From Bacillota bacterium (GTDB taxonomy: Bacteria > Actinomycetota > Aquicultoria > Aquicultorales > Aquicultoraceae), in contig JAIMBH010000024.1 in NCBI GenBank assembly GCA_023511485.1, positions 1 to 38,111 on the forward strand: a stretch of DNA of 38,111 nt. The letters are read 5' to 3'. This document shows positions 5,143 through 24,430 of this stretch, in pieces (position 1 is the first letter of the stretch; every line of letters starts with the position of its first letter). The translations under genes and the position numbers were made by a program. Under the pieces are notes generated by a model, which was not told where the DNA came from, searched no databases, and saw only the letters and a program-made list of their open reading frames with translations.

Positions 5143-5166
5143 CACGAGTAATGTGAGGTAGCTCGC

Positions 5167-6075: not shown

Positions 6076-6090
6076 TATTATATCAAGTGT

Positions 6091-7855: not shown

Positions 7856-8830
7856 GTGAACGTCCTTTTAACCAGCGCCGGAAGAAGAACGAGCCTTCTA
7901 GAAGCGTTTAAGGAGGCCGTCTACCAGCGCGGGGGCAAGGTTTTTGCGGGCGATATCGACGGGCTAGCTCCTTCTCTTTATCTCGCAGACCAGGGATTTA
8001 AGCTGCCCAAGGCAAAAAGCCCCGAATATATACCCTGCCTGTTAGAGTTGATTGAAAAACATAAAATCCGCCTTATTGTCCCAACAATCGATACCGAGCT
8101 GCCGGCGCTATCTGCCGCTTCGGCCGAGTTTAAAAAGCGGGGCTGCACCGCGCTTGTATCATCGGAAGAGTTGGTTGCTATAAGCGGGGATAAGTGGCGC
8201 TCAGTTAAGACATTTGGCGAAAGAGGGCTGCGGGTGCCGCGCTCCTGGCTGCCGGAAGAGATTGCCCCTGAAAACCAGACCAATCTGCCAGAGAGTTTGT
8301 TTATAAAGCCAAGAGACGGAAGCGCAAGCCAAAACACATACCGGGTAAGCCGAAGCTCGCTGACATCTTTGCTTACTCAGGTGCCAAACCCAATTATTCA
8401 AGAAGATATCGACTCACCCGAGATAACAATAGATGCACTGCTTGACTTAAATGGAAGAATAATTCACTTTGTTCCTAGACTTAGGATCCGCACGCTGGCT
8501 GGCGAGTCTATTCAGGGAGTCACAATTGCTGATACCAAGATACGCAGCTGGCTTATCCAGGCGCTAGACGTTATTGCCTCACTTGGCGGCAGGGGGCCGA
8601 TAACCCTTCAGGCATTCCTAACTGAGGGAGGGCCTACTATCTCAGAGGTAAACCCGCGCTTTGGTGGTGGCTTTCCGCTAACTCTGGCGGCAGGAGGTAA
8701 CTACCCAGAATGGATTTTAGAGATGCTTGAGGGCAAAGATGTCTCTCCACGGCTGGGCGAATATAAGAAGGGATTATACATGACGCGCTACTACGTAGAG
8801 ATATTTAAGGAGGAGCCGCTGTGGCAGTAA
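7856..8830 (+). CDS. ATP-grasp ligase (CarB/PylC-like), probable glycan-modifying enzyme
   Basis: This 324-residue protein has an N-terminal Rossmann-like pre-ATP-grasp domain (VLLTSAGRRTSLLEA). An ATP-grasp core follows, with FIKPRDGSAS near 148-157 and the metal-binding SEVNPRFGGGFP near 262-273. These enzymes join a carboxylate to an amine or other nucleophile through an acyl phosphate. The substrate cannot be assigned. The start is GTG 7856 directly after the previous stop; AAAGGAGG at 7835-7842 sits 13 bp upstream. It overlaps the HAD gene by 10 bp and lies between a priming transferase and an aminotransferase, so attachment of an amino acid or acyl group to an amino sugar is a reasonable guess. 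It is clearly shorter than carbamoyl-phosphate synthase. Confidence 0.8.
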   Translation: MNVLLTSAGRRTSLLEAFKEAVYQRGGKVFAGDIDGLAPSLYLADQGFKLPKAKSPEYIPCLLELIEKHKIRLIVPTIDTELPALSAASAEFKKRGCTALVSSEELVAISGDKWRSVKTFGERGLRVPRSWLPEEIAPENQTNLPESLFIKPRDGSASQNTYRVSRSSLTSLLTQVPNPIIQEDIDSPEITIDALLDLNGRIIHFVPRLRIRTLAGESIQGVTIADTKIRSWLIQALDVIASLGGRGPITLQAFLTEGGPTISEVNPRFGGGFPLTLAAGGNYPEWILEMLEGKDVSPRLGEYKKGLYMTRYYVEIFKEEPLWQ

Positions 8831-9531
8831 GGCTAGGGGTGGTTTTTGACCTTGACGATACGCTATATCTTGAGCGCGACTATGTGCAAAGCGGCTTTAA
8901 AAGTGTTGCCAGCTTGTTGCAAGACAGGGCTGGGATTGACAGTGAGCAGGCGTTTGAGAGTTTATGGGGTTTTTTTGAAAAGGGCGTGCGCGGCAACTCT
9001 TTTGACCTGCTCTTTGAGGTTTATCCTGAGCTGTCAGGGCAGGTTAAAATAGAGGACTTGGTGCAAGCCTACCGTGCGCATGAGCCAATAATTGAGCCAA
9101 TAGCAGGTGTGGTGGATTTAGTCTATGAGCTGCGGGGCAGGGGATGCCGGCTAGGTCTATTATCCGATGGGCCCCTGAAGAGCCAGCAAGCCAAATTAAG
9201 AGCACTTAGCCTCGAGGACGCATTTGAGCCACTTGTCCTAACGGATGCCTGGGGGCGCAATTTTTGGAAGCCGCACCCAAGAGGATATGAGCTCTTTGCC
9301 AAGACCTGGGGCTTTCATCCACAGGAGATGGTCTACATCGGGGACAATCCGGAAAAGGATTTTCTCTGCCCCAATAAACTTGGCTGGCATACCATACGCC
9401 TGAAAATAAAAGGCCAGCTTAGATTTGCAGAGGAGCCCGTCTCCCCCGATTATGCGCCTGGTTTGGAGGCTAGCAGTTTTGCTGATTTAAGAGAGCTGCT
9501 GGATAGATTAATTGTAAACCTAGTAAGCTAG
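8821..9531 (+). CDS. HAD-superfamily hydrolase
   Basis: This 236-residue haloacid-dehalogenase-like phosphatase has all four motifs. They are FDLDDTLY with the nucleophile Asp10 and Asp12, LLSDG near 112-116, the Lys in FWKPHPRGYE near 150, and YIGDNPEKDF near 171-180. Start GTG 8821 has AAGGAGG at 8807-8813, 7 bp upstream, inside the ATP-grasp gene it overlaps. It probably removes phosphate from an intermediate made with or for the ATP-grasp enzyme; the substrate is unknown. The last codons form the left arm of a long inverted repeat that continues past the stop codon. Confidence 0.82.
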   Translation: MAVRLGVVFDLDDTLYLERDYVQSGFKSVASLLQDRAGIDSEQAFESLWGFFEKGVRGNSFDLLFEVYPELSGQVKIEDLVQAYRAHEPIIEPIAGVVDLVYELRGRGCRLGLLSDGPLKSQQAKLRALSLEDAFEPLVLTDAWGRNFWKPHPRGYELFAKTWGFHPQEMVYIGDNPEKDFLCPNKLGWHTIRLKIKGQLRFAEEPVSPDYAPGLEASSFADLRELLDRLIVNLVS

Positions 9532-9554
9532 TAAGGTTAACAATTAATCTATCC
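9501..9554 (+). other. Long near-perfect inverted repeat at the 3' end of the HAD gene
   Basis: Arms at 9501-9521 and 9534-9554 are complementary at 20 of 21 positions, around a 12-nt loop that contains the HAD stop codon. A T run does not follow directly. A second, AT-only 8-bp stem (9562-9569 with 9576-9583) comes right after. The element could protect mRNA 3' ends, attenuate the downstream aminotransferase gene, or be a REP-like sequence. Confidence 0.7.
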
Positions 9555-9598
9555 GGCTTATAAGAAAAATCGTGTTTTTTCTTAGTGAGGTTAAAGCG

Positions 9599-10804
9599 AT
9601 GAGTCTTGCGATAGATGGCGGAAAACCGATTCGCACAGAGCCCTTTGCGCCTTGGCCGTACTTTGCTGAAGATGAGATCGAGGCAGCGGCAAGGGTCCTT
9701 AAATCGGGCAAAGTCAACTACTGGACCGGTGAAGAGGGGCGGCTTTTTGAGAAAGAGTTTGCTAAGGCAGCTGGCTGCAAATATGCGGTTGCAGTTGCCA
9801 ACGGTACTGTTGCCCTTGAGCTTGCTTTATACGCCCTTGGTATTGGCCCGGGAGACGAGGTCATTGTCCCCAGCCGCACTTTTATTGCCTCGGCAAGCTG
9901 TGCTGTCATGCGAGGTGCAGTCCCTGTAGTTGCTGATGTCGATGCCGAGAGCCAAAACCTGACCATCGAGGCAATAAGAGCTGCCCTCACACCAAAGACC
10001 AAGGCGATAATTGCCGTTCATCTAGCTGGCTGGCCTTGCGATATGGACCCCATTATGGAGCTAGCTCGCAAGCATGGCCTAAAAGTAATTGAGGACTGTG
10101 CGCAAGCCCACGGCGCAACTTATAAGGGGCGCCCGGTTGGCTCGCTGGGAGATGTGGCCGCCTTTTCCTTCTGCCAAGATAAGATTCTAACCACCGGCGG
10201 TGAGGGTGGCATGCTCACCACTAACGATAAAGATGTTTGGGAGAAGGCTTGGTCATTTAAAGACCACGGCAAAAGCTTTGAAGCTGTCTACCACCGGGTG
10301 CACCCCCCGGGTTTTCGCTGGGTCCATGAGTCCTTTGGAACCAACTGGCGGATGACCGAGATGCAATCAGCAATCGGAAGGGTGGTTTTAAAAAAGCTCC
10401 CAGGGTGGGTCGATACCCGCCGCCTGTATGCAAGCATCCTAACAGAGAGGCTATCAAAGTTACCGGCCATCCGGGTCACATCGCCGCCAAAAGACTTTGG
10501 GCACTCCTATTATAAGTACTATATTTTCATCCGTCCAGAAAAGCTCAAGGGGGGCTGGGATCGAAACCGCATCATGGCAGCTGTCCATGCCGAAGGAATA
10601 CCTTGCTCAACAGGAAGCTGCAGCGAGATATATCTTGAGAAGGCCTTTGAAAACAAAGGTTTGAAGCCGGCCGGGCGACTCAAGGTCGCAAAAGAACTGG
10701 GTGAGACAAGCCTGATGTTTCTCGTTCACCCCACGCTTTCTGAGAAAGATATAGAAGACACCTGCCTCGCTGTTGAGAAGGTTATGGCTGAGGCAGCAAT
10801 ATAG
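9599..10804 (+). CDS. DegT/DnrJ/EryC1/StrS sugar aminotransferase (first copy)
   Basis: This 401-residue PLP-dependent aminotransferase installs an amino group on a keto-sugar nucleotide (or a keto-cyclitol) using Glu or Gln. Fold-type I signatures are present: the cofactor-binding Asp166 in KVIEDCAQAHG and the Schiff-base Lys195 in FSFCQDK just before GGEGG. The N terminus (IDGGKPIR) resembles the AHBA-synthase/StsC side of the family. I chose ATG 9599 because GAGG at 9587-9590 is 8 bp upstream; an in-frame ATG at 9572 would fall in the AT-rich hairpin. It probably acts on the 4-keto product of the dehydratase at 361. It is not a close copy of the aminotransferase at 19493. Confidence 0.88.
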   Translation: MSLAIDGGKPIRTEPFAPWPYFAEDEIEAAARVLKSGKVNYWTGEEGRLFEKEFAKAAGCKYAVAVANGTVALELALYALGIGPGDEVIVPSRTFIASASCAVMRGAVPVVADVDAESQNLTIEAIRAALTPKTKAIIAVHLAGWPCDMDPIMELARKHGLKVIEDCAQAHGATYKGRPVGSLGDVAAFSFCQDKILTTGGEGGMLTTNDKDVWEKAWSFKDHGKSFEAVYHRVHPPGFRWVHESFGTNWRMTEMQSAIGRVVLKKLPGWVDTRRLYASILTERLSKLPAIRVTSPPKDFGHSYYKYYIFIRPEKLKGGWDRNRIMAAVHAEGIPCSTGSCSEIYLEKAFENKGLKPAGRLKVAKELGETSLMFLVHPTLSEKDIEDTCLAVEKVMAEAAI

Positions 10805-10847
10805 CCACCAATCTTTTATAATAATTAAAATTCAAGCGTATTTACAT

Positions 10848-10878
10848 TAACCGATTTCTTGGAAGAACATGCTATAAT
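10848..10878 (+). promoter_or_regulatory. Extended -10 promoter for the second glycan block
   Basis: TGCTATAAT at 10870-10878 is a perfect TGn-TATAAT extended -10. TTAACC at 10848-10853 is a weak -35 at 19 bp. A transcript would start near 10885, about 90 nt before the dehydratase at 10976. This is the clearest promoter inside the locus and supports reading 10976-21318 as its own operon. Confidence 0.55.
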
Positions 10879-10884
10879 ATGGTA

Positions 10885-10913
10885 GGTCCTTGTTTACTTT
10901 GATACTAAGGGCC
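10885..10913 (+). other. Hairpin at the start of the second-block leader
   Basis: ggtcctt (10885-10891) pairs with aagggcc (10907-10913), 7 bp with one G-U pair, and ATTTTAATAA follows. It lies at the predicted 5' end of the message, so it could be a weak attenuator or a stabilising 5' hairpin. Confidence 0.35.
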
Positions 10914-10975
10914 ATTTTAATAAGTAATGTACCAGAGACCAAAGCCAATTCACAGTAATAGACGAAGGAAGCGCC

Positions 10976-12037
10976 ATGAAAGATTTTTATAAAGGCCTAA
11001 AAGTGCTCATTACAGGCGCAGCCGGAACCGTCGGAAGAGAGATAGTAAGGCAACTCTCTCTCCTTGAGCCTGCAGAGCTCAGATTAGTGGATAATAACGA
11101 AACAGAGATGTTCTTCCTTATGGAAGAGTACAGGCATCAAGACATCCACTGCTTTCTAGGCGATATAAGAGACAGAGATAAAGTAGAAAAGCTTTGCAAA
11201 GACATCGATGTAGTTTTCCACTGTGCTGCTTTTAAGCATGTGATTCTCTCTGAATACAATCCTTTTGACGTTGTGCAAACCAATGTTATCGGCGTTGAAA
11301 ACGTCATAAGAGCCGCAACAAACCAAAATGTAAAGTATGTTCTCTTTACAAGCAGCGATAAGGCCGTAAACCCAACAAGCGTTATGGGCGCATCAAAACT
11401 ACTTGGAGAAAAGCTTATAACCGCTGCTAACGCTATAAAAAATGGAAGCAGTACCATTTTTAGCAGCACAAGATTTGGAAATGTTATGGGGTCTAGAGGC
11501 TCCGTTGTCCATCTCTTCATGAAGCAGGTCAAAAGCGGTGGTCCTGTTACGATCACCGATCGAAGGATGACGAGATTTGTCATGACCGTTGAGGAAGCTG
11601 CAAGGCTGGTACTAAAATCGGTCACGATTGCCCGCGGAGGAGAAGTATTTGTTGCCAAGATGCCAACAATAAAAATACCTGATCTCGCAGAGATTATAAT
11701 TGATACTCTTGCCCCAAGATATGGGTATCACCCCGCAGACATTGGCGTTGTCGAGATTGGAGCCAAACCCGGCGAGAAATTGTACGAAGAGCTGATGAGC
11801 AACGAAGAGGTTCGCCGCTCCCTAGAGCTTGATGACATGTTTGTGATCACGCCAGCGTTTAGGTCAATATATCAATCAATAAGCTATGAATACCCGCAAA
11901 TTGTCTCCAATACAGTAAATAAACCTTATGTCTCTTCCATAGAGAAGCCATTATCAAAAGAAGAACTTTGGCGGTATTTGATTAGTAAAGGTGTTTTGGG
12001 CAAATCCGAGGATAACCTGGTGGAGGTAACCAAATGA
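10976..12037 (+). CDS. Soluble nucleotide-sugar 4,6-dehydratase (CapD/PseB-like)
   Basis: This 353-residue extended SDR of the polysaccharide-biosynthesis CapD family has no membrane domain. It has the NAD-binding ITGAAGTVGRE (12-22) and a C-terminal substrate part. The active site reads TSSDKAVNPTSVMGASK (about 125-141), with Met137 in the usual Tyr position and Lys141. This marks a UDP-GlcNAc-type 4,6-dehydratase rather than an epimerase. It has a good ribosome binding site (AAGGAA 10965-10970) before ATG 10976. Its stop overlaps the sulfoquinovose synthase start (ATGA), so the two are translationally coupled. With the DegT enzyme at 19493 it would make a 4-amino-4,6-dideoxy sugar; the product stereochemistry is not known. 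Confidence 0.86.
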   Translation: MKDFYKGLKVLITGAAGTVGREIVRQLSLLEPAELRLVDNNETEMFFLMEEYRHQDIHCFLGDIRDRDKVEKLCKDIDVVFHCAAFKHVILSEYNPFDVVQTNVIGVENVIRAATNQNVKYVLFTSSDKAVNPTSVMGASKLLGEKLITAANAIKNGSSTIFSSTRFGNVMGSRGSVVHLFMKQVKSGGPVTITDRRMTRFVMTVEEAARLVLKSVTIARGGEVFVAKMPTIKIPDLAEIIIDTLAPRYGYHPADIGVVEIGAKPGEKLYEELMSNEEVRRSLELDDMFVITPAFRSIYQSISYEYPQIVSNTVNKPYVSSIEKPLSKEELWRYLISKGVLGKSEDNLVEVTK

Positions 12038-13212
12038 GAATCCTGGTATTGGGTGCGGATGGTTACCTTGGCTGGCCAACCTGTATGTATTTTTCACAGC
12101 GGGGCCATGATGTCACGGGGATAGATAACTATTTTCGCCGCAACGCTTCCCGTGAACTAAATTGCGAGCCCTTGATAGCAAATCCAGACCTTCTACAGCG
12201 GGCAAGGATATGGGAGAAGATATCCGGCAAGAAGATACACATACATATAGGAGATGTAACCGATTACTCCTTTCTTAAGGAAATATTCACCGAGTATAGA
12301 CCGGATACAGTCGTGCACTATGCCGAGCAGCCCTCTGCCCCCTATTCTATGATGGATCGTGATAAAGCGGCCTTTACCCTGACAAACAACCTTGTAACCA
12401 CCCTAAACGTCATTTATGCCGTAAGAGAAGTTGCGCCGGATTGCCACATTATCAAGCTCGGCACGATGGGCGAGTACGGCACCCCGAACATCGACATAGA
12501 AGAGGGATGGATCGAAATTGAGCACTTGGGTCGGAAGGATAAGTTTCTCTTCCCAAGGCAGGCAGGCTCTCTTTATCATACAACCAAGATTCAAGACACA
12601 GACATGCTGTGGTTTTATGTCAGAACTTGGGGTCTAAGGGCAACCGACTTGATGCAAGGCCCCGTTTACGGCATATCAACCGATGAGTCGGATCTGGATG
12701 ATCGCCTTTTGCCGCATTTTAACTACGACGATATATTTGGCACCGTGCTAAACCGATTTGTTGTGCAGGCGGTGGTCGGCCACCCGCTGACTATATATGG
12801 AAAAGGCAAGCAGACCAGAGGATATTTAGATATAAGGGATGCCCTATCTTGCGTATATTTGGCAGCCAATAATCGCCCCCTACGCGGTGAGCTAAGGATA
12901 TTCAACCAATTAACTGAAACATTCTCAGTTAACGAGCTTGCCGATAAAGTGAAGCGGTTTGCCGATTGGCATGGCTACAAAGTACAGATCAGACATTATG
13001 AAAACCCCCGGGCAGAAAAAGAAGAGCATTATTATAATCCAAAATATAGCGGGCTTCTCGAGCTTGGGCTCAAGCCCCATTATCTGACAGACGAAGTTCT
13101 TGACAAGATGTTTAGGGTTGTTGAGAAATACAGAGACAATATTTACGAGCACCAGATACTAAGAGGAATTAAGTGGATGCAAGAAACAAGTAAAGAGCCT
13201 GTGGTTATGTAA
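12034..13212 (+). CDS. sqdB: UDP-sulfoquinovose synthase (SQD1/SqdB/Agl3 family)
   Basis: The enzyme combines UDP-glucose with sulfite to give UDP-sulfoquinovose, a C6-sulfonated sugar used in sulfolipids and in some archaeal glycans. The 392-residue protein follows SQD1 along its length. It has GADGYLGW (7-14), EQPSAPYSM (98-106), KLGTMGEYGTPNIDIEEG (141-158) with Thr144, Tyr181 and Lys185 (the catalytic set of SQD1), then YGKGKQTRGYLDIRD, FNQLTETFSVNELA and the C-terminal EEHYYNPKYSGLLELGL. Start ATG 12034 overlaps the previous stop by 4 bp, with GGAGG a few bases upstream. I see no sulfolipid glycosyltransferase (SqdX/SqdD) that I can name. The sulfonated sugar therefore more likely enters the glycan made by this operon. 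Assignment is by strong remembered similarity; activity is untested. Confidence 0.88.
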   Translation: MRILVLGADGYLGWPTCMYFSQRGHDVTGIDNYFRRNASRELNCEPLIANPDLLQRARIWEKISGKKIHIHIGDVTDYSFLKEIFTEYRPDTVVHYAEQPSAPYSMMDRDKAAFTLTNNLVTTLNVIYAVREVAPDCHIIKLGTMGEYGTPNIDIEEGWIEIEHLGRKDKFLFPRQAGSLYHTTKIQDTDMLWFYVRTWGLRATDLMQGPVYGISTDESDLDDRLLPHFNYDDIFGTVLNRFVVQAVVGHPLTIYGKGKQTRGYLDIRDALSCVYLAANNRPLRGELRIFNQLTETFSVNELADKVKRFADWHGYKVQIRHYENPRAEKEEHYYNPKYSGLLELGLKPHYLTDEVLDKMFRVVEKYRDNIYEHQILRGIKWMQETSKEPVVM

Positions 13213-13288
13213 TAATTCACTTGTTATAGGATGTATAGTACTACTACTAAGCATCCTTTAACTCTCAAATAAAGCGGGGGGACAAGAT

Positions 13289-14374
13289 TTGAGGCAGCCC
13301 ACGCAAGAACTCGCACATAGTAATATCAGTTTCACTGAGAGAGCAAGCTGGCTGATAACCGGTGGCTGTGGATTTATTGGTGTTAACCTGATAGATCACC
13401 TACTTAAGAATATTCCAGGTATAAGGATAAGGATTCTGGACAACCTCTCTGTAGGCAGTAAAGACAATTTGCTGGAGGTTGCTTCCTTTACGCAAAAAGA
13501 GGCTAACTCCATAGCCGACAGACCTACTGGAGTCGAGCTTGTTGTGGGTGATATTACCGATTACGATACGTGCCTTAGCTGCTGCAGGGGAATAAATGTT
13601 GTTGTACACCTTGCTGCAAACACCGGAGTTGCCCCATCGGTTGATTATCCAAGACAAGACATGAAGGCCAATGTAATCGGCACCTTTAACATGCTTGAGG
13701 CATCAAGGCATTCCGGTGTCGAAAAATTCATCTTTGCCTCATCAGGCGCATCCCTAGGAGAAGTCGAGCCGCCTATTGATGAGGAAAAGGTCGCGAGGCC
13801 TGTGTCTCCTTATGGTGCAAGCAAGCTTGCTGGCGAGGGTTATTGTTCGGCTTACTTTCGAACCTTTGGATTGAAAACCATATCCCTTAGATTCGGTAAT
13901 GTCTATGGCCCAAGGTCGAAGAATAAAGAAAGTGTAGTAGCAAAATTTATCAAGAAGGCCTTGAGTGGAGAAGTCCTTGAAATATATGGCGATGGTGAAC
14001 AGACAAGGGATTTCATATATATAGATGACCTGGTGCAGGCCATTATGCTTTCGGCAAAAGCAGATATCGGCGGAGAAGTATTCCAGATAGCAACACACAA
14101 TGAGACTACCATAAATGAGTTGGTCAAGATAATCAGTATGCTTGTAAATGAAAGCGTGGATAAAGAGACGAGAGTAAAACATGTTAGCGCAAGGCCTGGG
14201 GACGTAAAAAGGAATTTCTCAGATATATCAAAGGCGCGTAAGTTGTTAGGGTACAAGCCGGCATTTGACCTAGATGCCGGACTGCGGATTACATTTGAAT
14301 ACTTTGCACAATTTAAGCAAGAGCAAATTGCAAGCTCCTTGCTTATCTGCCATTCATATCGAGCAGCTGAGTGA
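13289..14374 (+). CDS. NAD-dependent sugar epimerase/dehydratase (GalE-like extended SDR)
   Basis: This 361-residue extended SDR has an NAD-binding ITGGCGFIG (23-31), HLAANTGV (107-114) and the catalytic Tyr175-x-x-x-Lys179 in SPYGASK. VYGPRSKN and YGDGEQTRDFIYIDDL follow, typical of UDP-hexose 4-epimerases and UDP-glucuronate decarboxylases. It probably supplies a precursor sugar (for example a UDP-galactose or UDP-uronic acid derivative); which one cannot be read. The start is TTG 13289, with a run of six G 7 bp upstream. The 76-bp gap before it holds a weak 6-bp hairpin (aggatg/catcct). It is not duplicated elsewhere in the window. Confidence 0.82.
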   Translation: MRQPTQELAHSNISFTERASWLITGGCGFIGVNLIDHLLKNIPGIRIRILDNLSVGSKDNLLEVASFTQKEANSIADRPTGVELVVGDITDYDTCLSCCRGINVVVHLAANTGVAPSVDYPRQDMKANVIGTFNMLEASRHSGVEKFIFASSGASLGEVEPPIDEEKVARPVSPYGASKLAGEGYCSAYFRTFGLKTISLRFGNVYGPRSKNKESVVAKFIKKALSGEVLEIYGDGEQTRDFIYIDDLVQAIMLSAKADIGGEVFQIATHNETTINELVKIISMLVNESVDKETRVKHVSARPGDVKRNFSDISKARKLLGYKPAFDLDAGLRITFEYFAQFKQEQIASSLLICHSYRAAE

Positions 14375-14474
14375 ATACCGCAAGATATTGTGCTGTCTTG
14401 TAATCTAATAGGCTGGAGCAACCGTATATTTAACAAATTGCTTAGGGTTGGGCATATGGAGGAGAAGAATCAGC

Positions 14475-15758
14475 GTGTGGTTTTTTAATGCTATCTTATA
14501 TATTTTTATCGCATCTTTACCTTTAGACTATAGTCAATTCAAATTGTTTGGCCTTTTGACGCCAACTGAGATTGTTGCTATCTCTATAATTTATGCTTCG
14601 CTCATCCTTTTTATAGCAAATAAAGCTACTAGGACTTGGCTTATTCAGTTTACGCCTTTTATTGTTGCCTATTTCGCCTTTTCGCTCTTTTTAACATTTT
14701 CAGTGTTTCTAAACACTACACAAGCAACTATGCGATACATATCACACATATGGTCTAGTTTCTTTGTTTTTTTATCCTTGATAGTTTTAATAAAACCACG
14801 AAGCATGCTTTCTAATATCAAATCTATTTTCTTTGTGGTTGGCCTTACTATTGCATGTTTAAATATCGCACAGACATTTATTACACTTCCTATCGAAGTA
14901 GGTAGGGTTGTATATTCAAGGATACCATTCGTAAGCGTTCGGGTATCCTCTATAAATCCGATTTTTGCAGTTAGCGGCACCTTTCTGTTTATTGCGCTAA
15001 TGGTAACAGTGGAAAAGTTAATTCAGCCAACCAGGTTTTTAAAAAGAATGCCATACATTTTTGCGCTTTTAACTCTAGGGATTGGGTTATTAATAAATCA
15101 ATCCAGAAGTATCTTTATTGCAACACTTGCGGCACTTCTAGCTTATTTTGCTATCAAGCTCTCAAGGAATCCCCTAAGAAATATTCTTGTTGCTCTTTCT
15201 CTAGGAATAACCATCCTGTTACATATAAATTATGGTTATATTAACCTTGAATCAATCGTAAATGGCCTCATCTCTCTTGAAGAGCGAACGGTTATTTCTA
15301 GAGTAAATCAATATTATTATGTACGTGATATAATAGCCTCAGGCAGTATTGCAAATATTATTACTGGTTTCGGGCCGGAAATCTACTATTTGGCATCCCC
15401 AGATAGCCGAGATCTGCATAATACATTTATATACACTTTTCTCTCCTACGGAATAGCCGGCATTTCGACCTTAGCTTTGATGCTAATATTATTGACAGTT
15501 CGCTTAGTTAAAAGATTAAACACCGATACAACTCTTTTCTTTAGTATAATTATAGGGCTAATAATTTCCATGAACGGCTATAATGCGTTCAGCTCCTATA
15601 TATTTCCTGTTGTTTACGCTATCTCGTTAACAATAACCAAACTAAGCTATACAACCATAAGCCGACTACCAGAGATTAAAGCGATAAGTCCTACACAAGA
15701 TCAAGGGGATAGCATATGGACAAGAGCAATAATCAAAACTACGGAGCTGCTAAGCTAA
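14475..15758 (+). CDS. Wzy/O-antigen ligase-like polysaccharide polymerase (third copy)
   Basis: This 427-residue polytopic membrane protein is AT-richer than its neighbours. Its C-terminal half has NQSRSIFIATLAA, GFGPEIY and DLHNTFIYTFLSYGIAG (His near 315), the arrangement seen in Wzy_C/O-antigen ligase proteins. Start GTG 14475 is preferred because GGAGGAG at 14458-14464 lies 10 bp upstream; the frame is open to a TTG at 14448 without such a site. It overlaps the methyltransferase gene by 43 bp. As the only polymerase candidate in the second block, it probably polymerises or ligates that block's repeat unit. Sequence is less diagnostic than for enzymes, so the call rests on topology and context. 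Confidence 0.75.
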   Translation: MWFFNAILYIFIASLPLDYSQFKLFGLLTPTEIVAISIIYASLILFIANKATRTWLIQFTPFIVAYFAFSLFLTFSVFLNTTQATMRYISHIWSSFFVFLSLIVLIKPRSMLSNIKSIFFVVGLTIACLNIAQTFITLPIEVGRVVYSRIPFVSVRVSSINPIFAVSGTFLFIALMVTVEKLIQPTRFLKRMPYIFALLTLGIGLLINQSRSIFIATLAALLAYFAIKLSRNPLRNILVALSLGITILLHINYGYINLESIVNGLISLEERTVISRVNQYYYVRDIIASGSIANIITGFGPEIYYLASPDSRDLHNTFIYTFLSYGIAGISTLALMLILLTVRLVKRLNTDTTLFFSIIIGLIISMNGYNAFSSYIFPVVYAISLTITKLSYTTISRLPEIKAISPTQDQGDSIWTRAIIKTTELLS

Positions 15759-16474
15759 CTGACATAAATTATTGGAATAATTACTGGTCATCAGCTGGCA
15801 ACTTAGATACCAGAGCCATCATATCTCTTAGATGGATGCGCGGCTATTTATTTCAAGAAATGAAAGACGTATTTCGATCCAACTTACCAATAAGTGATTC
15901 AAGGGTGTTTTTAGAGATTGGTTGTGCACCGGGTAGGTGGATTGTTTATTTTAGGAAACACTTTGGATACAGATGTTATGGACTGGAGATAAGTGATCAG
16001 GGCTACAAGCAGACGGTTGAGAATCTTTGTGCAGCAAATGTTGACGCTAGGATAATCCAGGCGGACGTGGTTTTTTCAGATGGATTCCTGGAACACTTTA
16101 CCGATTTACAGTCAATAATAGAAAAGCTGGTATCTCTTGTTAAGCCCGGAGGTATTTTAATCTCCTCAATCCCAAACTTAACTGGATTACACAAAGCTTT
16201 TATTGCCCTATCAAAAAAGAAGGCGCATATATTTAACCACCACTATCCAATTACCGCTGAAGCAATTCGCAAGGCCTATGAAAGCCATGGGCTTAGGACG
16301 AAAATATTTCCCGTAGGCTCAGTCATTCCTAAGCTGGTAGGCCATTTTCTAATTAACAAACCACTTAATGTATTATTGCTGGGAATGAAGCATCTTAAAA
16401 TAAACCATTTGTTTGAAAATACTGCAATCTCAAATACGTATATTGTTATTGGCATAAAACAAGACGGTGCATGA
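15716..16474 (+). CDS. SAM-dependent methyltransferase (class I), first copy
   Basis: This 252-residue protein has the SAM-binding motif I as FLEIGCAPGRW (65-75), an acidic residue after beta-2 (GLEISDQG), and SDGFLEHF at the usual position of the SxGvleHf motif. KPGGILISSIPN follows. Such enzymes in glycan clusters usually O-methylate a sugar, often a terminal one. ATG 15716 has AAGGGG at 15703-15708, 7 bp upstream, within the polymerase gene. Its end overlaps the next GT4 gene by 4 bp (ATGA). The acceptor is unknown; cell-wall or lipid targets are not excluded. Confidence 0.82.
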   Translation: MDKSNNQNYGAAKLTDINYWNNYWSSAGNLDTRAIISLRWMRGYLFQEMKDVFRSNLPISDSRVFLEIGCAPGRWIVYFRKHFGYRCYGLEISDQGYKQTVENLCAANVDARIIQADVVFSDGFLEHFTDLQSIIEKLVSLVKPGGILISSIPNLTGLHKAFIALSKKKAHIFNHHYPITAEAIRKAYESHGLRTKIFPVGSVIPKLVGHFLINKPLNVLLLGMKHLKINHLFENTAISNTYIVIGIKQDGA

Positions 16475-17658
16475 TGATTAATGCAAACGATTTACATGTG
16501 TTTTATTGTCTCTATAGAGACTTTCCAGGAAATAGTTCGACAGCATACTATAACTATGCTCGATGCCTTGTAGAGCAAGGTGTACGGGTTACCGTTGTTG
16601 CTGGAAACGATAGGAAAAGCGCTGAAAGCAAAGATCGCAAGTTTATCTCGGGTGTAGATGTTTATCGATTAGAAACAAAATTAAATGACGCAATGTCCGT
16701 ACATCCGACATGGTTTGCAATGAAAGCTTTTTGGTTGATATCAAGATTGGCCCAAGACAAAGCAAACAGCATCCTTCATCAAATAGCATTCCCGAACCTT
16801 GGTCTTGTACTGCAGCCACCACCTTTTTTTAGACTACCGAAAAGGCAGGTGTTAGATATAAGAGCAACCGCTGTCAGAAGAGAGTTCCTTGATCGCTTAT
16901 CATGCAAGATAATTAAATTTCAAGCAGGCTTATTTAAAAATGTTCTAGTTATATCAGAAGAGGTAGCTAAAAGACTAAAGCTCGACTCATACGATGTATT
17001 ACCTATAGGTGTAAATCTTTCTTTATTCAAACGCGATGAAGTAAAACGAGCAAGGCTTAGAGGTAGTCTTGGATTAAAAGATACCGATCTTCTCTTGGTC
17101 TATGTAGGGCATCTAAATCCGAGTAGACGCCTGGACTTGCTCTTAAGAAGTTTTTGGTTAGCCAAGAGCTATATTAAAAATGCAATGGGTACCGATTTAT
17201 CAATGATGATAATTGGAGGTGGCTCTGACTTTGAAAGGTTGCGAAATATTGCCAAGTCTGGTCCCTGCCAGGACAGAACTGTATATTTCGTTGGGCCAAA
17301 ACCCCACGATGAAATCCCTGCTTATTTAAGTGCAGCGGATGTAGGGATCGCCTATATACCTGAGACATCGCAATACTTTTACCAACCACCTATAAAAACA
17401 TATGAGTACCTAGCAAGTGGTCTGTGCACCATTGCAACAAGAACCCTAGGCAATCTAAGAGTTATTGCTGATGGCGATAACGGCATCTTAAGCGATTATA
17501 GAGAAGAAGCAATCGCAAACGCCATTATAAAAGTTGCGGCTAACCCAGAGCTTCGGAAAAAACTCTCTGATAATGCAAGGCAAAGCATCTCAGAATACGA
17601 TTATAGAAGAATCGTTGCAAAAATTTTGGTGCCTTATTACGAAAGGATTTGTCGCTAA
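16471..17658 (+). CDS. GT4-family glycosyltransferase (second copy)
   Basis: This 395-residue GT-B fold protein has an N-terminal domain with RDFPGNSSTAYYNYARCLVE, as in GT4 enzymes. Its C-terminal donor site includes VYVGHLNPSRRLDLLLRSF, a glycine-rich IIGGGSDFERL and PPIKTYEYLASG. The typical E-x7-E pair is not clear; the conserved acidic position appears as the Glu of TYEYLASG. It is probably cytoplasmic, adding a sugar to the second glycan's repeat unit. It is translationally coupled to the methyltransferase upstream, and the GT2 gene starts directly after its stop. Confidence 0.82.
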   Translation: MMINANDLHVFYCLYRDFPGNSSTAYYNYARCLVEQGVRVTVVAGNDRKSAESKDRKFISGVDVYRLETKLNDAMSVHPTWFAMKAFWLISRLAQDKANSILHQIAFPNLGLVLQPPPFFRLPKRQVLDIRATAVRREFLDRLSCKIIKFQAGLFKNVLVISEEVAKRLKLDSYDVLPIGVNLSLFKRDEVKRARLRGSLGLKDTDLLLVYVGHLNPSRRLDLLLRSFWLAKSYIKNAMGTDLSMMIIGGGSDFERLRNIAKSGPCQDRTVYFVGPKPHDEIPAYLSAADVGIAYIPETSQYFYQPPIKTYEYLASGLCTIATRTLGNLRVIADGDNGILSDYREEAIANAIIKVAANPELRKKLSDNARQSISEYDYRRIVAKILVPYYERICR

Positions 17659-18807
17659 ATGAAAGTAGTATTTTGGGTATCCTTGTTCTTGTTGTTGTAT
17701 ACCCATCTACTATACCCAGCCGTTCTCTATCTAATGGCCTTATATATAAGAAGAAGACCGCTTGTTAACAACAATGATTATGACGCCAAAATTAGCATTG
17801 TTATAGCAATCCATAACGAAGAGAACGTTATTTCCAAAAAGCTACAGAACATCCTTGATTCAATTAGCCATCCATCCCTTGGTAAAAATGTAGAGATAAT
17901 ATTGGCTTCCGATGGCTCCTCGGATAACACAGTTGCCATTGCAAACAAGTTTAAGCAATATATGAACCTAAAAATCCTGTCCCTTAGCAGACAAGGGAAG
18001 GCGCTTGCTCACAACGAAGCCATTAAAAATGCAAATGGTGAGCTTATTATATTTACTGATGCTGATGCCGAATTTGATACAGCGTTTATAAAAAATGTGG
18101 CAAATTATTTCTCTCTCAAAGACGTTGGTTGTGTAACCGGAAATCTTATCTATAAACCCACAAATTCGGCAATATCCAAATCGGAGAGCCTCTATTGGAA
18201 GATCGAGAGGAAAATCAGATCACTTGAGAGTAATATCGGCATACTTGCTACTGCAAGCGGCGCATGTATGGCAGTTAGAAAGGAGTTGTGGCTTGACTTG
18301 ACCCCCACCGATGATTCTGATTTCATCACACCGCTCGATGTTGTCTTGCAGGGATATAGGGTGATTTTTGCTCCAGATGCGATTGCTTATGATATTCCTC
18401 CTTCTTCTGTCAAAGGAGAGTTTAAGACAAGAATTCGCCAGACATCTAAGAACTTTATAGGAACATTACGTAGATGGGGATGGGTGGGTCTAGCCAAGCA
18501 CCCATTCGTAAGCTGGGGACTGGTATCACACAAGATACTGCGTTGGCTTACACCATTTTTCATGTTTTTAGTTCTCTTGGGAGACTTGTTGCTTCTTAGG
18601 GAAGGGTTTTTGTATCGGCTAATATTTGTAAAGCAAATAATTTTTTACTGTACAGCGATAGTAGGCTTTTTTGGCGAAGTTGTCAAAATAAGACTTCCTG
18701 TCGCCTCGGCCGTCTTTAGTTTTTGTGTGGCTAGTTTTGGGATGGGGGTTGGCGTTATAAAAAGCATTGTTGGTAAGGCACCTTCGTTATATGGGTTGGA
18801 AGATTGA
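17659..18807 (+). CDS. Membrane-anchored GT2-family glycosyltransferase
   Basis: This 382-residue protein has an N-terminal membrane helix (about 4-29) and a GT-A catalytic domain with ASDGSSD (83-89) and the metal-binding TDADAEF (133-139). An R(Q)TSKNF...RRW segment follows, resembling the Q-x-x-R-W region of processive polysaccharide synthases, then about three C-terminal hydrophobic helices. This layout matches IcaA/hyaluronan-synthase-like or lipid-linked-sugar transferases. ATG 17659 follows the previous stop directly. Whether it polymerises or adds a single residue is uncertain, because the QxxRW motif is only approximate. Confidence 0.82.
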   Translation: MKVVFWVSLFLLLYTHLLYPAVLYLMALYIRRRPLVNNNDYDAKISIVIAIHNEENVISKKLQNILDSISHPSLGKNVEIILASDGSSDNTVAIANKFKQYMNLKILSLSRQGKALAHNEAIKNANGELIIFTDADAEFDTAFIKNVANYFSLKDVGCVTGNLIYKPTNSAISKSESLYWKIERKIRSLESNIGILATASGACMAVRKELWLDLTPTDDSDFITPLDVVLQGYRVIFAPDAIAYDIPPSSVKGEFKTRIRQTSKNFIGTLRRWGWVGLAKHPFVSWGLVSHKILRWLTPFFMFLVLLGDLLLLREGFLYRLIFVKQIIFYCTAIVGFFGEVVKIRLPVASAVFSFCVASFGMGVGVIKSIVGKAPSLYGLED

Positions 18808-19496
18808 CTAAAGAGCTAGATAGAATCGTAGAAGCATATAAGAATAGAGACGCTGCTGGAAAGGGAGAGCTTTATACTTTCTTTCAGCCATCAACTATTT
18901 ATATAGCCCAACAAAGAGAAAGGGAGCTGATCAAAACCCTTATCCAGCACAGTGCTACCAGCCTATCAGAAATGCGCATTCTTGATTTAGGCTGTGGTAC
19001 CGGTAACGTGTTAAGAGACTTTATTAAATACGGTGCAAAGCCTAAAAACTGTTACGGAATTGACTTGCTTCCTGATAGAATAAAGATAGCAAAAGACTTA
19101 AGCCCTAATGTTAGCTTTGAATGTGGCAACGCAGAGAATTTACCGTATGAAGACGAGTTCTTCGATATAGTGCTCTGTTTTACAGTATTTACGTCAATTT
19201 TAGACCCAGAAATGAAACGAGGCATAGTGTCAGAAATGTATCGAGTACTAAAGCGTGGTGGCATCATCCTATACTATGATTACCACATAAACAACCCTAA
19301 GAACCTAGATGTAAGAGGGGTCAAAAAAAGGGAAATCCGCAAACTCTTTCAAGGCTTTAAAATCCAGCTTAAGCGTGTGACTCTAGCTCCTCCACTGGTG
19401 AGAGCTATAGCCCCATTTTCGTTTATGTTGTGCCAAATTCTCGAGAAAGTTCCTTTGCTTCGCACGCATTATCTTGGAGTGATGACAAAGTTATGA
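18804..19496 (+). CDS. SAM-dependent methyltransferase (class I), second copy
   Basis: This 230-residue protein has motif I ILDLGCGTGN (59-68), GIDLLPDR with the acidic ribose-binding residue, NAENLPYEDEFFDIVLC (the motif IV region) and RVLKRGGIILYYDY. This is the Methyltransf_11 pattern. It starts at TTG 18804, overlapping the previous stop by 4 bp (TTGA) with only a weak GGAA upstream. Its stop overlaps the next ATG by 4 bp. In this setting it probably methylates a sugar or amino sugar of the glycan, but the sequence does not name the substrate. It is unrelated in detail to the methyltransferase at 15716. Confidence 0.8.
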   Translation: MTKELDRIVEAYKNRDAAGKGELYTFFQPSTIYIAQQRERELIKTLIQHSATSLSEMRILDLGCGTGNVLRDFIKYGAKPKNCYGIDLLPDRIKIAKDLSPNVSFECGNAENLPYEDEFFDIVLCFTVFTSILDPEMKRGIVSEMYRVLKRGGIILYYDYHINNPKNLDVRGVKKREIRKLFQGFKIQLKRVTLAPPLVRAIAPFSFMLCQILEKVPLLRTHYLGVMTKL

Positions 19497-20659
19497 AGCA
19501 GTTACCAAAACAGATACCGTTTCATAAACCATATATAACAGAGGATGAAATATCGGAAGTCGTTGACTCCCTGCGATCGGGCTGGCTTACAATGGGGCCG
19601 AAAACTGCAAAATTCGAAGAGGAATTCCAGCGGTACGTCGGCTCAAGACATGCGGTCGCAGTGAATTCCTGTACGGCGGCAATACACCTTGCCCTGCGGG
19701 CCATCCATCTAGAAGCTGGTGATGAGGTTATTATGCCGACTATGGCTTTTACAGCTACCGGTGAGGCAGCTCATTACTTTGGCGCAAAACCGGTCATCGT
19801 CGATATAGATATAGAAACCCTATGCATTGACGTAAATCGTATCGAGAGAGCTATAACCCCTAAAACAAAAGCTATAATTCCCGTTCATCACGGAGGGCAG
19901 CCTTGCGATATGGATGCAATAATAGATTTGGCAGAGTACCACGGCTTACAAGTAATCGAAGATGCAGCCCATGCCCTTCCTGCTTGGTATCGAGGAAGAA
20001 AAATAGGGTCTATCGGACATATAACCTGCTTTAGTTTTTATGCTACAAAAACCCTCGCAACAGGCGAAGGAGGCATGGCAACTACTGAAAATAACGAGTG
20101 GGCCTGCAGAATGAAGACGCTGCGCTTACATGGTATATCAAGGGATGCTTGGCTGAGAAATAAAAAAGGGGGTTCATGGTATTATGAGGTTTTAGAGGCC
20201 GGTCATAAATATAATATGACCGATATTCAGGCTGGGTTGGGGCTAGCACAGCTAAGCAAAGTCGAGTGGATGTGGAACCGTAGAAGATCGATTGCCGAAA
20301 AATACTCCCTAGCGTTTAAAGACTCTGAGCTGATTACACCGCCCAGCATCAAAACCGATAGAGTTTCATCATGGCACCTCTATATTATAAAACTTAACCT
20401 AGAAGCCCTTAGAATTGATAGAGCGGGCTTTATTGAAGCGCTTAAAGCAGAAGGTATTGGGGCAAGCGTCCACTTTATTCCCCTTCATAAACACCCTTTT
20501 TATATAAACACTTTCGGCTATGACAGTAGAGATTTTCCAGACGCTGAGTGGGCTTACGAGCGAATCGTATCGCTTCCAATCTATCCAGGGATGGATGATG
20601 CCGATGTTGATAGAGTTATTGAGGTAGCCAATAGCGTTGCACTAAGGTACAAGAGATGA
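19493..20659 (+). CDS. DegT/DnrJ/EryC1/StrS sugar aminotransferase (second copy)
   Basis: This 388-residue PLP aminotransferase has Asp157 in QVIEDAAHALPA and the Schiff-base Lys186 in CFSFYATKTLATGEGGMA. The N terminus IPFHKPYITEDEI is typical of the PglE/PseC/ArnB-like group that aminates UDP-4-keto-6-deoxy sugars. I chose ATG 19493 because it gives the family's usual N terminus and overlaps the upstream stop as ATGA; GGAG at 19476-19479 lies 13 bp upstream. It probably acts with the dehydratase at 10976, and its product may be loaded by the priming transferase it overlaps. No acetyltransferase gene is present, so the amine may stay free or be modified otherwise. Confidence 0.88.
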   Translation: MKQLPKQIPFHKPYITEDEISEVVDSLRSGWLTMGPKTAKFEEEFQRYVGSRHAVAVNSCTAAIHLALRAIHLEAGDEVIMPTMAFTATGEAAHYFGAKPVIVDIDIETLCIDVNRIERAITPKTKAIIPVHHGGQPCDMDAIIDLAEYHGLQVIEDAAHALPAWYRGRKIGSIGHITCFSFYATKTLATGEGGMATTENNEWACRMKTLRLHGISRDAWLRNKKGGSWYYEVLEAGHKYNMTDIQAGLGLAQLSKVEWMWNRRRSIAEKYSLAFKDSELITPPSIKTDRVSSWHLYIIKLNLEALRIDRAGFIEALKAEGIGASVHFIPLHKHPFYINTFGYDSRDFPDAEWAYERIVSLPIYPGMDDADVDRVIEVANSVALRYKR

Positions 20660-21318
20660 AAAGGTGTTTTGATATATTTTTCTCAGCCATTGGTCTGGCG
20701 CTTGCCAGCCCAGCCTTTTTAGCTATAGCAGTCCTTATAAAACTTCGTGACCCTGGGCCTGTTTTCTTTATCCAACAAAGAACAGGACGGGACTTTAAGC
20801 CATTTGGGCTTTATAAGTTCAGAACAATGGTTATTGGTGCGTCAGAAAAAGGGCCATCTATAACCTCCAAAGGGGATCCCCGGGTTACAGGCATCGGGCG
20901 CTTCTTAAGAGAGACAAAATTAGATGAATTACCCCAACTGATCAATGTTCTAAAAGGCGATATGAGCTTCGTTGGTCCACGGCCGGAATTGCCCAAATAT
21001 ACTGCCTTGTTTAAGGATGATTACGAGGAGATCTTAAAAGTAAGGCCAGGAATTACTGATTATGCCTCAATCAAGTTTAGCGACGAGGAATCTTTGTTGA
21101 AAAGATACACCGACCCCGAGAAAGGCTATGTTGAAGATGTATTGCCTGCAAAAATAGCTCTTTATAAACAGTATATTAGAGAAGCTTGTTTTCTAACAGA
21201 CATAAAGCTGGTTTTACTTACATTATTAAAAGTCGCAAAACAGAGCAGTAGAATAATAGCCAAAGTGCTGCAGTTGTTGATCTTTGCCGCATATGGGCTT
21301 ACTCTATCTAGCCAATAA
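20656..21318 (+). CDS. PglC-type phosphoglycosyl transferase (priming enzyme, second copy)
   Basis: This 220-residue monotopic sugar-phosphate transferase has one N-terminal hydrophobic segment (about 5-29), FFIQQRTG, YKFRTM, the catalytic Asp90-Glu91 in KLDELPQL, GPRPEL and PGITDYASI. ITDYASI in place of LTGWAQV sets it apart from the first copy and suggests a different UDP-sugar. It primes undecaprenyl phosphate for the second glycan. It overlaps the DegT gene by 4 bp, a common PglE-PglC style pairing. The last gene of the plus-strand locus, it ends convergent to the phosphatase gene, and a 13-bp tandem repeat covers its stop codon. Confidence 0.9.
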   Translation: MKRCFDIFFSAIGLALASPAFLAIAVLIKLRDPGPVFFIQQRTGRDFKPFGLYKFRTMVIGASEKGPSITSKGDPRVTGIGRFLRETKLDELPQLINVLKGDMSFVGPRPELPKYTALFKDDYEEILKVRPGITDYASIKFSDEESLLKRYTDPEKGYVEDVLPAKIALYKQYIREACFLTDIKLVLLTLLKVAKQSSRIIAKVLQLLIFAAYGLTLSSQ

Positions 21319-21422: not shown

Positions 21423-22133
21423 TTAAAGAAGTATCTTAGCCGGGTTGTCATGCACGAGAGCCTGTGCCCGCTCTGGTCCGATGATTTTGGTGGCTACTTT
21501 GAGTGCGCCGGTAAAATCGGGAGGCCTTTTGTAGGCGGCATGGGCATCGGAGGCCATGATATCGACCTGACCCACTTTAAGCAGCTTCCTTGCGGTATCA
21601 AGGCTTGCCCGGCCCAGTTCGCCTGTTAGGCTGTTTGAGTTAATCTGGGTCAGGCAGCCCATGTCGATATATTTTTTCAGGCGCTCGGGTTTTCGCTGAA
21701 AATCATGGATGCGCTCAACATGGGCAAGTACTGGAATCCAACCATCGAGACGCAGGCGAAATATCACATCTTCAGCAAATAACGGTATCCCCTCAAACGG
21801 AAACTCAAGCAGTATATATTTGCTTCCCGCAAGCGGGAGCACCTCATCGGCCTTTAGCTCGCCCAGCAGATCCAAAGAGATACGAAGCTCATGCCCCGTA
21901 TATAGCTGAACCGGAACGGCCTCTTTCCTAAGAGCAGCTTGCAAAAGCTCAAATGAGGCAAGTATTTCTTGCTTTGTTGGACGGTGATATTCATTATGGT
22001 GGGGTGTCGCGATGATTCTTGTAATGTTGTTTTGATGTGCAACACACGCCATCTCGACCGCCTCTTGGATGGTGACCGGTCCGTCATCTAAACCTGGCAG
22101 TATGTGATTGTGGATATCAATATAACCCTGCAT
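21423..22133 (-). CDS. PHP-type protein-tyrosine phosphatase (CpsB/YwqE family)
   Basis: CpsB/YwqE phosphatases dephosphorylate the tyrosine cluster of the partner BY-kinase and so tune capsule or exopolysaccharide output. The 236-residue protein shows the PHP metal-binding pattern: DIHNHILPGLDDG (6-18), ATPHHNEYHRP near 43-53, LAHVER and a late ASDAHAA. Start ATG 22131-22133 has AAAGGA a few bases upstream. It lies on the same strand as, and downstream of, the kinase at 22901-24430, but the tRNA-Ile gene with its terminator sits between them, so it needs its own promoter. It is cytoplasmic, with no membrane segment. Confidence 0.9.
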   Translation of the reverse strand: MQGYIDIHNHILPGLDDGPVTIQEAVEMACVAHQNNITRIIATPHHNEYHRPTKQEILASFELLQAALRKEAVPVQLYTGHELRISLDLLGELKADEVLPLAGSKYILLEFPFEGIPLFAEDVIFRLRLDGWIPVLAHVERIHDFQRKPERLKKYIDMGCLTQINSNSLTGELGRASLDTARKLLKVGQVDIMASDAHAAYKRPPDFTGALKVATKIIGPERAQALVHDNPAKILL

Positions 22134-22900: not shown

Positions 22901-24430
22901 TTATAGTTTACCCAACAAGCTTGCAAAAACAGTTCGCAATGCACCGGGTTTTACTATGGCTTCGAGGGTTATTGCTGTTCCGCCCAGCACCAGAGCGGCA
23001 ACTATTACTCCAAGGCGTCTTTTCTTTGGCTTATGCTCAGTCCTCTCCTCAACGTATGCTCTCTGGTAATAATTATATGCGCCGGTTTTTTCGGATGCGT
23101 TTAAGGCAAAGCCTATGACACGGGCATTTACTTTATCAAGGGCCGCTTTGGCATCGACAAAGGCTTGCCTGTTCGTTACACCATGGCGCGCCAGCAGTAG
23201 TACGCCGTCTGTTTGGGATACCAGAACAAGCGCATCAGTAATCGTCGATATCGGTGGGCTATCCAGAATAATAAAATCGTACCTCCGGTTTACCTCTTCT
23301 AAGAACCGCTCCATCCTTTTTGATTCAAGCAGATCTACCGGATTTGGTGGCGTGGGACCGCTTACAACAATATCGAGGTCTTTGATGTCGGTTCTCTGTA
23401 TGGCTTTATCTAGACCTGCTGTTCCAATCAGTATATTTGCAAGGCCCACGTCGTTGCTCAAATTAAATAGCTGGTGAAGCCGTGGTCTTCTTAAATCGCA
23501 TCCAACAACCAAAACCCGATATCCGGCCCTCGCCATTACGGCTGCAAAGTTTGCGCAAAATAGTGTTTTTCCTTCGCTTACCCCAGCACTGGTTACAACT
23601 AGCGTCTTAATAGTGGACTCAAAATTTATATATTGTATATTAGTTCTTAGCATACGAAATGCCTCCGCCACAATTGAACGGGGCTCTGTTTTTACAATAA
23701 GCTCATTGCTGCCCTTTGGTATCTTAGGTATTTGGCCTAGCGAAACCAGCCCGCATAGCCGCTCCACTTCATCAACGTCTTTGATTGTCGTGTCCATGTA
23801 GTTCAATAAGAAAGCCAGCGTTATGCTTACAAGCAGACCTATAATAAAAGCAAAAACTGCGTTTAAAACTGGTCTTGGGCTTACCGGCTCCGTTGGCTCA
23901 ATTGCCGGCTCGACTATAGATATACTAACCAGTGTTTGGGAATCACCGGTTTTCTTGTTGGTTGTCTCAATATCTTCAACCATTTTTTTAAAAACAACCC
24001 CTATGGTATTTGCAATCTGCTGGGCTTGAGCTGGGTTCTTGTCCTGAACGGTTATATTGATAAGCTGAGTATCCCTGATCGGCTCAGCTTTTATCCTTTT
24101 TGTAAGATCAGTAGGCAGAACTGGAATATTTAGTTTATCAATGACTTTCTCCGCCGTCGAACGGTTTTCGATCATTTGGCTGAATGTTTTAGCCAGCCGC
24201 TCGCTGGTCAAGATAGCCTGGTAGCTTTCTCCGGCAGTTGAGCTATCGCCAACCACAACTTGCTTTTGACTGACAAGCAGCTGTAGTGAAGCTTCATAAG
24301 TAGGGGGCGTATATACGGTCACAACAATTGTTGCTACTAGGCATATTAGTGTGCCCAGGATGATAAGGTGTTTGTACTTGGTTATAACTTTCAAGAAATC
24401 TTTTAGCTCAACAGTGTCTTCTGTTACCAT
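22901..24430 (-). CDS. Wzz/CpsC-CpsD fusion: polysaccharide chain-length regulator with BY-kinase domain
   Basis: This 509-residue membrane tyrosine autokinase controls glycan chain length and export. Residues 1-210 form a Wzz domain: a membrane helix about 21-40, an extracytoplasmic part, the Pro-rich EPAIEPTEPVSPRP (174-187) and a second helix about 188-209. The kinase domain has the oligomerisation EAFRMLRTNI (256-265), Walker A SAGVSEGKT (281-289), Walker A' VVGCDLRRP (308-316) and Walker B IILDSPP (387-393). A tyrosine cluster (Tyr452, 454, 455, 459) is the likely phosphorylation site. Unusually, a basic stretch and another hydrophobic segment (about 473-493) follow, putting the tyrosine tail between membrane anchors. 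The start is ATG 24428-24430. A structured leader of about 237 nt precedes it. Confidence 0.92.
   Translation of the reverse strand: MVTEDTVELKDFLKVITKYKHLIILGTLICLVATIVVTVYTPPTYEASLQLLVSQKQVVVGDSSTAGESYQAILTSERLAKTFSQMIENRSTAEKVIDKLNIPVLPTDLTKRIKAEPIRDTQLINITVQDKNPAQAQQIANTIGVVFKKMVEDIETTNKKTGDSQTLVSISIVEPAIEPTEPVSPRPVLNAVFAFIIGLLVSITLAFLLNYMDTTIKDVDEVERLCGLVSLGQIPKIPKGSNELIVKTEPRSIVAEAFRMLRTNIQYINFESTIKTLVVTSAGVSEGKTLFCANFAAVMARAGYRVLVVGCDLRRPRLHQLFNLSNDVGLANILIGTAGLDKAIQRTDIKDLDIVVSGPTPPNPVDLLESKRMERFLEEVNRRYDFIILDSPPISTITDALVLVSQTDGVLLLARHGVTNRQAFVDAKAALDKVNARVIGFALNASEKTGAYNYYQRAYVEERTEHKPKKRRLGVIVAALVLGGTAITLEAIVKPGALRTVFASLLGKL

Follow-up and report, generated by a model that had tools for sequence, protein, structure and literature searches.

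An SQD1-like enzyme in a conserved cassette of bacterial polysaccharide loci, a candidate source of sulfonated surface sugar

Sulfosugar synthesis has been described for photosynthetic membranes, for some sulfolipid-making bacteria and for archaeal N-glycans. The enzymes closest to the one described here are SQD1 of Arabidopsis (PDB 1qrr and 1i24), the bacterial SqdB proteins, and Agl3 of Sulfolobus acidocaldarius, which makes UDP-sulfoquinovose for the S-layer N-glycan. Two further systems resemble a neighbouring gene product. Pen and Pal of Bacillus thuringiensis are short-chain dehydrogenases/reductases (SDRs) on the UDP-N-acetylglucosamine (UDP-GlcNAc) 5,6-ene route to pseudaminic acid, and are an example of two SDRs that act one after the other by way of an exo-glycal; WbpM and PglF are UDP-GlcNAc 4,6-dehydratases. 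Here we describe an SQD1-family gene at 12034-13212 of a 38,111-nucleotide stretch of DNA (the window). The window is one whole contig (JAIMBH010000024.1) of an uncultured Actinomycetota genome (GCA_023511485.1; 2.37 Mb, reported 100% complete). The gene does not stand alone as an sqdB in some random operon; it is part of a conserved cassette with a dehydratase gene and often an epimerase gene. We give an even chance to the reading that the enzymes of this cassette make a C6-sulfonated UDP-hexose for a Wzy-type surface polysaccharide. In the open-access literature we found no description of a bacterial polysaccharide locus with an SQD1 relative.

The gene (+ strand) encodes a predicted NAD-dependent, UDP-sulfoquinovose synthase-like enzyme of 392 aa. 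Residues 2-383 align to Arabidopsis SQD1 (phmmer against 1qrr, E 3.3e-132), and the NCBIfam model for UDP-sulfoquinovose synthase, NF041015, is matched over residues 1-375 (467.8 bits). The nearest solved fold to the AlphaFold2 model (pLDDT 88) is SQD1 1qrr, with a TM score of 0.94; the next fold scores about 0.7. An earlier note on this DNA had claimed a match to SQD1/SqdB along the length of the gene, with Thr144, Tyr181 and Lys185 in SQD1 positions, and both claims hold: T144, Y181 and K185 align with T145, Y182 and K186 of SQD1, and the window enzyme is identical to SQD1 at these residues and in KLGTMGEYGTPNIDIEEG. This Thr/Tyr/Lys set is common to extended SDRs. The curated NF041015 cut-off of 575 bits was considered as a case against membership and dropped. 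It says nothing either way, because authentic SQD1 (484.7 bits) also falls below it, as does SqdB of S. meliloti (332 bits). No second SQD1-family copy was found in the host genome.

Relatives were gathered from named genomes (80 loci) and from unnamed relatives. Because these were picked for their likeness to the window protein, the counts apply to close relatives and not to the SQD1 family as a whole. Maximum-likelihood analysis places the window protein in a clade of 56 rows (Shimodaira-Hasegawa-like approximate likelihood ratio support 100), apart from SQD1 and from the SqdB proteins of S. meliloti, Roseiflexus and Alicyclobacillus; bacterial SqdB proteins outside the clade share about 40% (S. 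meliloti) to 55% identity with the window protein. The named hosts of the clade span ten phyla. Most are metagenome-assembled genomes, and the closest named relatives are such genomes from Actinomycetota; isolates include Wenzhouxiangella, Salibaculum, Psychromarinibacter and Legionella gresilensis. Gene neighbourhoods were compared between 44 clade loci, each flanked on either side by 1.5 kb or more, and 32 other SQD1 loci. A PF02719 dehydratase gene on the same strand is found no more than 6 kb away in 38 of the 44 clade loci (no more than 150 bp away in 32) and in none of the 32 others (Fisher p 2e-15). By the same 6-kb criterion, an epimerase gene accompanies the SQD1-like gene in 22 of 44 clade loci and in one of 32 others, and that one locus (L054) itself holds a clade member. 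No cassette gene beyond these three is conserved; the next family is found in only 6 of 54 loci. Such few conserved neighbours fit a module for sugar nucleotides that is inserted into polysaccharide loci of various kinds. We regard it as firm that these SQD1 relatives form a distinct and widespread clade, linked to glycans and accompanied by gene partners of their own.

Membership of the SQD1 family could in itself suggest an ordinary gene for biosynthesis of sulfoquinovosyl diacylglycerol (SQDG), lying in a polysaccharide cluster by chance. SqdB genes outside the clade often share their genome with an SqdX-like or SqdD-type gene. The protein encoded beside sqdB in locus L106 was used as the SqdX query, and matches of 240 bits or more were counted as SqdX-level. 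There is none in the whole host genome, where the best match (65 bits, 34% over about 170 aa) is a generic family 4 glycosyltransferase (GT4). SqdX-level matches are also absent from all 30 clade genomes (never more than 166 bits) but present in 18 of 28 other SQD1-bearing genomes. S. meliloti SqdD, a query without a positive control, has no match in the host genome. The absence of a recognisable sulfolipid synthase, noted earlier for the operon, thus extends across the genome. That nucleotide-sugar genes recur beside the SQD1-like gene in ten phyla also argues against chance placement, and SQDG biosynthesis is very improbable. A surface glycan is the more likely destination, because an SQD1-family gene stands in a polysaccharide operon and no sulfolipid synthase was found in a genome reported as 100% complete.

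The first cassette gene, 10976-12037 (+ strand), encodes a short, soluble SDR dehydratase (PF02719, 6e-96) and overlaps the SQD1-like gene by 4 bp, as the earlier note had it. Its nearest solved structure is 6bwc (289 bits), which is Pen, a UDP-GlcNAc 5,6-dehydratase (PMC8987622). Unlike Pen, it has Met in place of the catalytic Tyr, and its partner is SQD1-like; Pal is only a weak match to the 12034-13212 protein. It carries the S/T-D-K...M...K fingerprint of WbpM and PglF, with DK and M137 invariant in 41 of 41 relatives, but differs from these enzymes in being short and soluble, and PglF (WlaL) scores 145 bits against about 290 for Pen. The third gene, 13289-14374 (+ strand), encodes an NAD-dependent hexose 4-epimerase-like SDR with SSGA...YxxxK (Pfam epimerase; nearest are 4zrm GalE and WbpP). 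S151, Y175 and K179 are invariant in 28 of 28 epimerases, which have no dehydratase acid/base pair.

The WbpM/PglF fingerprint, together with a priming transferase and a DegT aminotransferase in the operon, would also suit the making of two separate sugars. The dehydratase, with the epimerase or the aminotransferase, would then yield a 6-deoxy-N-acetylhexosamine (for example N-acetylquinovosamine or N-acetylfucosamine) and the SQD1-like enzyme would yield UDP-sulfoquinovose, the two being joined in a shared linkage unit or repeat. This explanation overlaps with the preferred one of a sulfonated hexose supplied by the cassette, and the two are compatible. A shared linkage would need a conserved glycosyltransferase, and none goes with the cassette; the 6 of 54 loci given above are as far as any further family goes. 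A long membrane-bound PF02719 dehydratase (292-2247, + strand; PF02719 with CoA_binding_3) is moreover already there for the ordinary reaction, so the short enzyme is unlikely to serve ordinary 4,6-dehydration alone. In three relatives (L034, L035 and L036), a homologue of this long dehydratase immediately precedes the cassette. Two separate sugars seem a possible but doubtful outcome.

We return to the sulfonated sugar proposed for the cassette. The host encodes AprA, AprB, QmoC, DsrA, DsrB and DsrK, all above curated cut-offs; the AprAB-QmoC and DsrAB/DsrK gene sets are on genome contigs C11 and C12 (L151, L150). No member of the 3'-phosphoadenosine 5'-phosphosulfate reductase family was found in the host. 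Judged by these genes, dissimilatory sulfate reduction is very probable in this organism, with sulfite among the main intermediates, and sulfite would therefore be at hand. The horizontally spread cassette would provide a UDP-hexose of unusual kind for a surface polysaccharide of the Wzy type. The SQD1-like enzyme would oxidise C4 of UDP-glucose or UDP-GlcNAc with tightly bound NAD+ and eliminate the C6 oxygen, giving a 4-keto-5,6-ene; sulfite from sulfate respiration would then be added at C6 to give a 6-deoxy-6-sulfo sugar. The epimerase may convert this sugar to the galacto form, and the dehydratase and epimerase could act either before or after the SQD1-like enzyme. The glycosyltransferases and polymerase would build the sulfo sugar into a glycan and not into SQDG. 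In general terms, the module of two or three SDRs probably provides a 6-modified, sulfonated UDP-hexose for a surface glycan. The bolder proposal is a new nucleotide-sugar pathway in ten phyla, in which all three enzymes jointly make a sulfonated hexose, possibly N-acetylated or of galacto form (for example 6-sulfo-N-acetylhexosamine or sulfofucose), and which is tied to intracellular sulfite in sulfate reducers; this we advance only tentatively.

Much of the active site agrees with sulfonation. [ST]MGxnYx3K is the published active-site fingerprint of UDP-sulfoquinovose synthase (PMC8987622). It is represented in the window enzyme by T144-M145-G146 (12463-12471, + strand) and the catalytic pair Y181xxxK185 (12574-12588, + strand), placed by alignment. 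Over 54 clade members, T and M are each found in 53, and G, Y and K in all 54. Ala mutants of Agl3 at His95, Met145, Tyr182 and Lys186 are inactive (PMC4388408); all four residues are retained in the window enzyme, as aligned through primer contexts and SQD1, and throughout the clade. Mutation of Agl3 Glu147 or Tyr148 to Ala removes 85-88% of activity (PMC4388408), and E147 is kept in 50 of 54 clade members and Y148 in 54. The likeness to Agl3, drawn from function and published mutants only, includes the proposed use in a surface glycan and not a lipid. Agl3 serves a protein N-glycan, whereas the window locus is of the Wzy polysaccharide type.

Several observations weigh against sulfonation. 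The Arg101 Ala mutant of Agl3 is inactive (site placed by the primer context AEQ-R-SAP; PMC4388408). Arg is also present in SQD1, S. meliloti, Roseiflexus and Alicyclobacillus, but the site is Pro in 54 of 54 clade members (Pro100 in the window enzyme; codon 12331-12333, + strand, by arithmetic from the start of the open reading frame). Relative to SQD1, N208M, V211P and L184T are clade-specific changes found in almost the whole clade, near other active-site positions in sequence; the first two span M207 to P210 of the window enzyme (12652-12663, + strand, by alignment). K176R is likewise typical of the clade. The stem of the clade is long, at 0.55 changes per site, as expected after a shift in function. 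Roughly half of the hosts in the clade lack an AprA or DsrA match, and in the host's own family DsrA is found in 10 of 11 genomes whether the cassette is present or not. Literature searches found no locus of this kind that makes a sulfonated bacterial polysaccharide.

The Pro-type enzyme may accordingly have dropped sulfite and act as a 5,6-dehydratase, an isomerase or another C4-oxidising SDR on a shared UDP-sugar, leaving the glycan with a deoxy, unsaturated or epimerised sugar free of sulfur. There is precedent, since Agl3 without sulfite acts as a 5,6-dehydratase (PMC8987622), and the partner dehydratase is nearest to Pen. Against this, TMG is near-invariant, with Met-Gly replacing the dehydratase acid/base pair, and fold and length are as in SQD1. 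Pro or Ala at the site is also found in Anaerolineae relatives of SQD1, some of them in genomes with SqdX-like glycosyltransferases, so Pro may be tolerated. Loss of sulfite is nearly as good an explanation as sulfonation; we consider it a serious contender, although short of an even chance. The earlier proposal of a surface glycan carrying sulfonated sugar thus stands for the glycan, favoured over SQDG by the operon and the lack of SqdX and SqdD. It is not secured for the sugar: UDP-sulfoquinovose is no safe product call, because Arg101 is replaced throughout the clade, alongside the changes at 208, 211 and 184. The pocket alignment proposed in that note is similarly divided, with the fingerprint and the four essential residues kept and the Arg lost.

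The Arg/Pro difference was dropped as proof, by itself, of lost function, because relatives from Anaerolineae, Solirubrobacterales and haloarchaea likewise have Pro or Ala there, and the genomes of some of them contain SqdX-like genes. A wider group of the tree, made up of the clade, Anaerolineae, Solirubrobacterales and some Actinomycetota, is marked by Pro or Ala, and most others by Arg; the change may therefore predate the cassette. SQD1 relatives with Pro or Ala at this site but without the cassette include L037, L038, L040, L099, L111, L115 and others (Anaerolineae, Actinomycetota).

AprA is above cut-off in 15 of 30 clade genomes against 0 of 21 other SQD1-bearing genomes, and DsrA is found in 16 of 30 against 0 of 10. 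This enrichment is suggestive of a link between the clade and sulfite. It is confounded by relatedness, since in the host family DsrA does not follow the cassette, and it was not accepted as proof of sulfite use; with shared ancestry it is circumstantial.

Five clade genomes (G091, G097, G103, G105 and G108) also hold a separate Arg-type SqdB, and the cassette there probably does another job. In G108, a single polysaccharide locus (L054) holds both the Arg-type and the Pro-type gene, at a distance of about 2.5 kb. This coexistence supports a division of labour, either between lipid and glycan pools or between different products; in the latter case it would also suit an enzyme that has lost sulfite. 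The L054 locus (VGSX01000002.1) has an S. meliloti-like, Arg-type SqdB and a Pro-type clade member at 6931-8127 and 10573-11715, and also holds a GT4, a methyltransferase related to that at 18804-19496 of the window, a family 2 glycosyltransferase (GT2) and an epimerase. On a Rhodococcus plasmid (L128, 3430-14945), an Arg-type SqdB relative has as neighbours a SulP anion transporter, an alkyl sulfatase-type gene and two large proteins, of which one carries a glycosyltransferase annotation.

If the sugar is sulfonated, the cassette, present at loci for surface polysaccharide in sulfate reducers and many other bacteria, would be an added biological sink for sulfite. It would also supply sulfosugar to the bacteria that are known to break it down, and would be a candidate pathway to sulfofucose, the biosynthesis of which has been reported as unknown (PMC12421959). 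Should no sulfur be added, a large clade of SQD1 relatives whose sole match is the UDP-sulfoquinovose synthase model would still carry the wrong name, affecting pathway predictions in many genomes.

The genes from 10976 to 21318 are co-directional (+ strand) and separated by only -67 to +76 bp, so they are likely to form an operon. Promoter and terminator counts in 9-23 kb match those of shuffled sequence (30 against 28.3, and 15 against 13.3), and no promoter was placed in this region. Downstream of the cassette are genes for a Wzy-type polymerase/O-antigen ligase-like membrane protein (14448-15758; PF04932, 7e-9), an S-adenosylmethionine (SAM) methyltransferase (15716-16474; PF13489), a GT4 (16471-17658; PF00534) that is not SqdX-like (31% over about 174 aa, 34 bits), a GT2 (17659-18807; PF00535), a second SAM methyltransferase (18804-19496; PF08241), a DegT/DnrJ sugar aminotransferase (19493-20659; PF01041, 9e-133) and a Bac_transf polyprenyl-phosphate glycosyl-1-phosphate (priming) transferase (20656-21318; PF02397, 1.5e-59). 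The DegT start was shifted from 19430 to the better ATG at 19493, which gives a 4-bp overlap. Pfam confirms each member of the operon as first listed: two methyltransferases, epimerase, aminotransferase, two glycosyltransferases, polymerase and priming transferase.

On the minus strand beyond the operon are genes for a CpsB/CapC phosphatase (21423-22133; PF19567) and a Wzz plus BY-kinase-type chain-length regulator (22901-24430; PF02706, PF13614). Parts of a Wzx/Wzy-type locus are thus present: priming transferase, polymerase, glycosyltransferases and Wzz/CpsB regulators (PF02397, PF04932, PF00534, PF00535, PF19567, PF02706). No Wzx flippase family was matched among the window proteins scanned, no genome-wide search having been made. 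Directly upstream, 292-10804 is a second polysaccharide block with Wzy-like proteins, GT2, GT4, a priming transferase, a PylC-like ATP-grasp protein, an HAD-like protein and DegT; the locus therefore has two priming transferases. Beside the glycan locus, 27465-37126 holds an origin-type cluster (dnaN, recF-like, dciA, gyrB and gyrA), followed by genes for archease and the RNA ligase RtcB.

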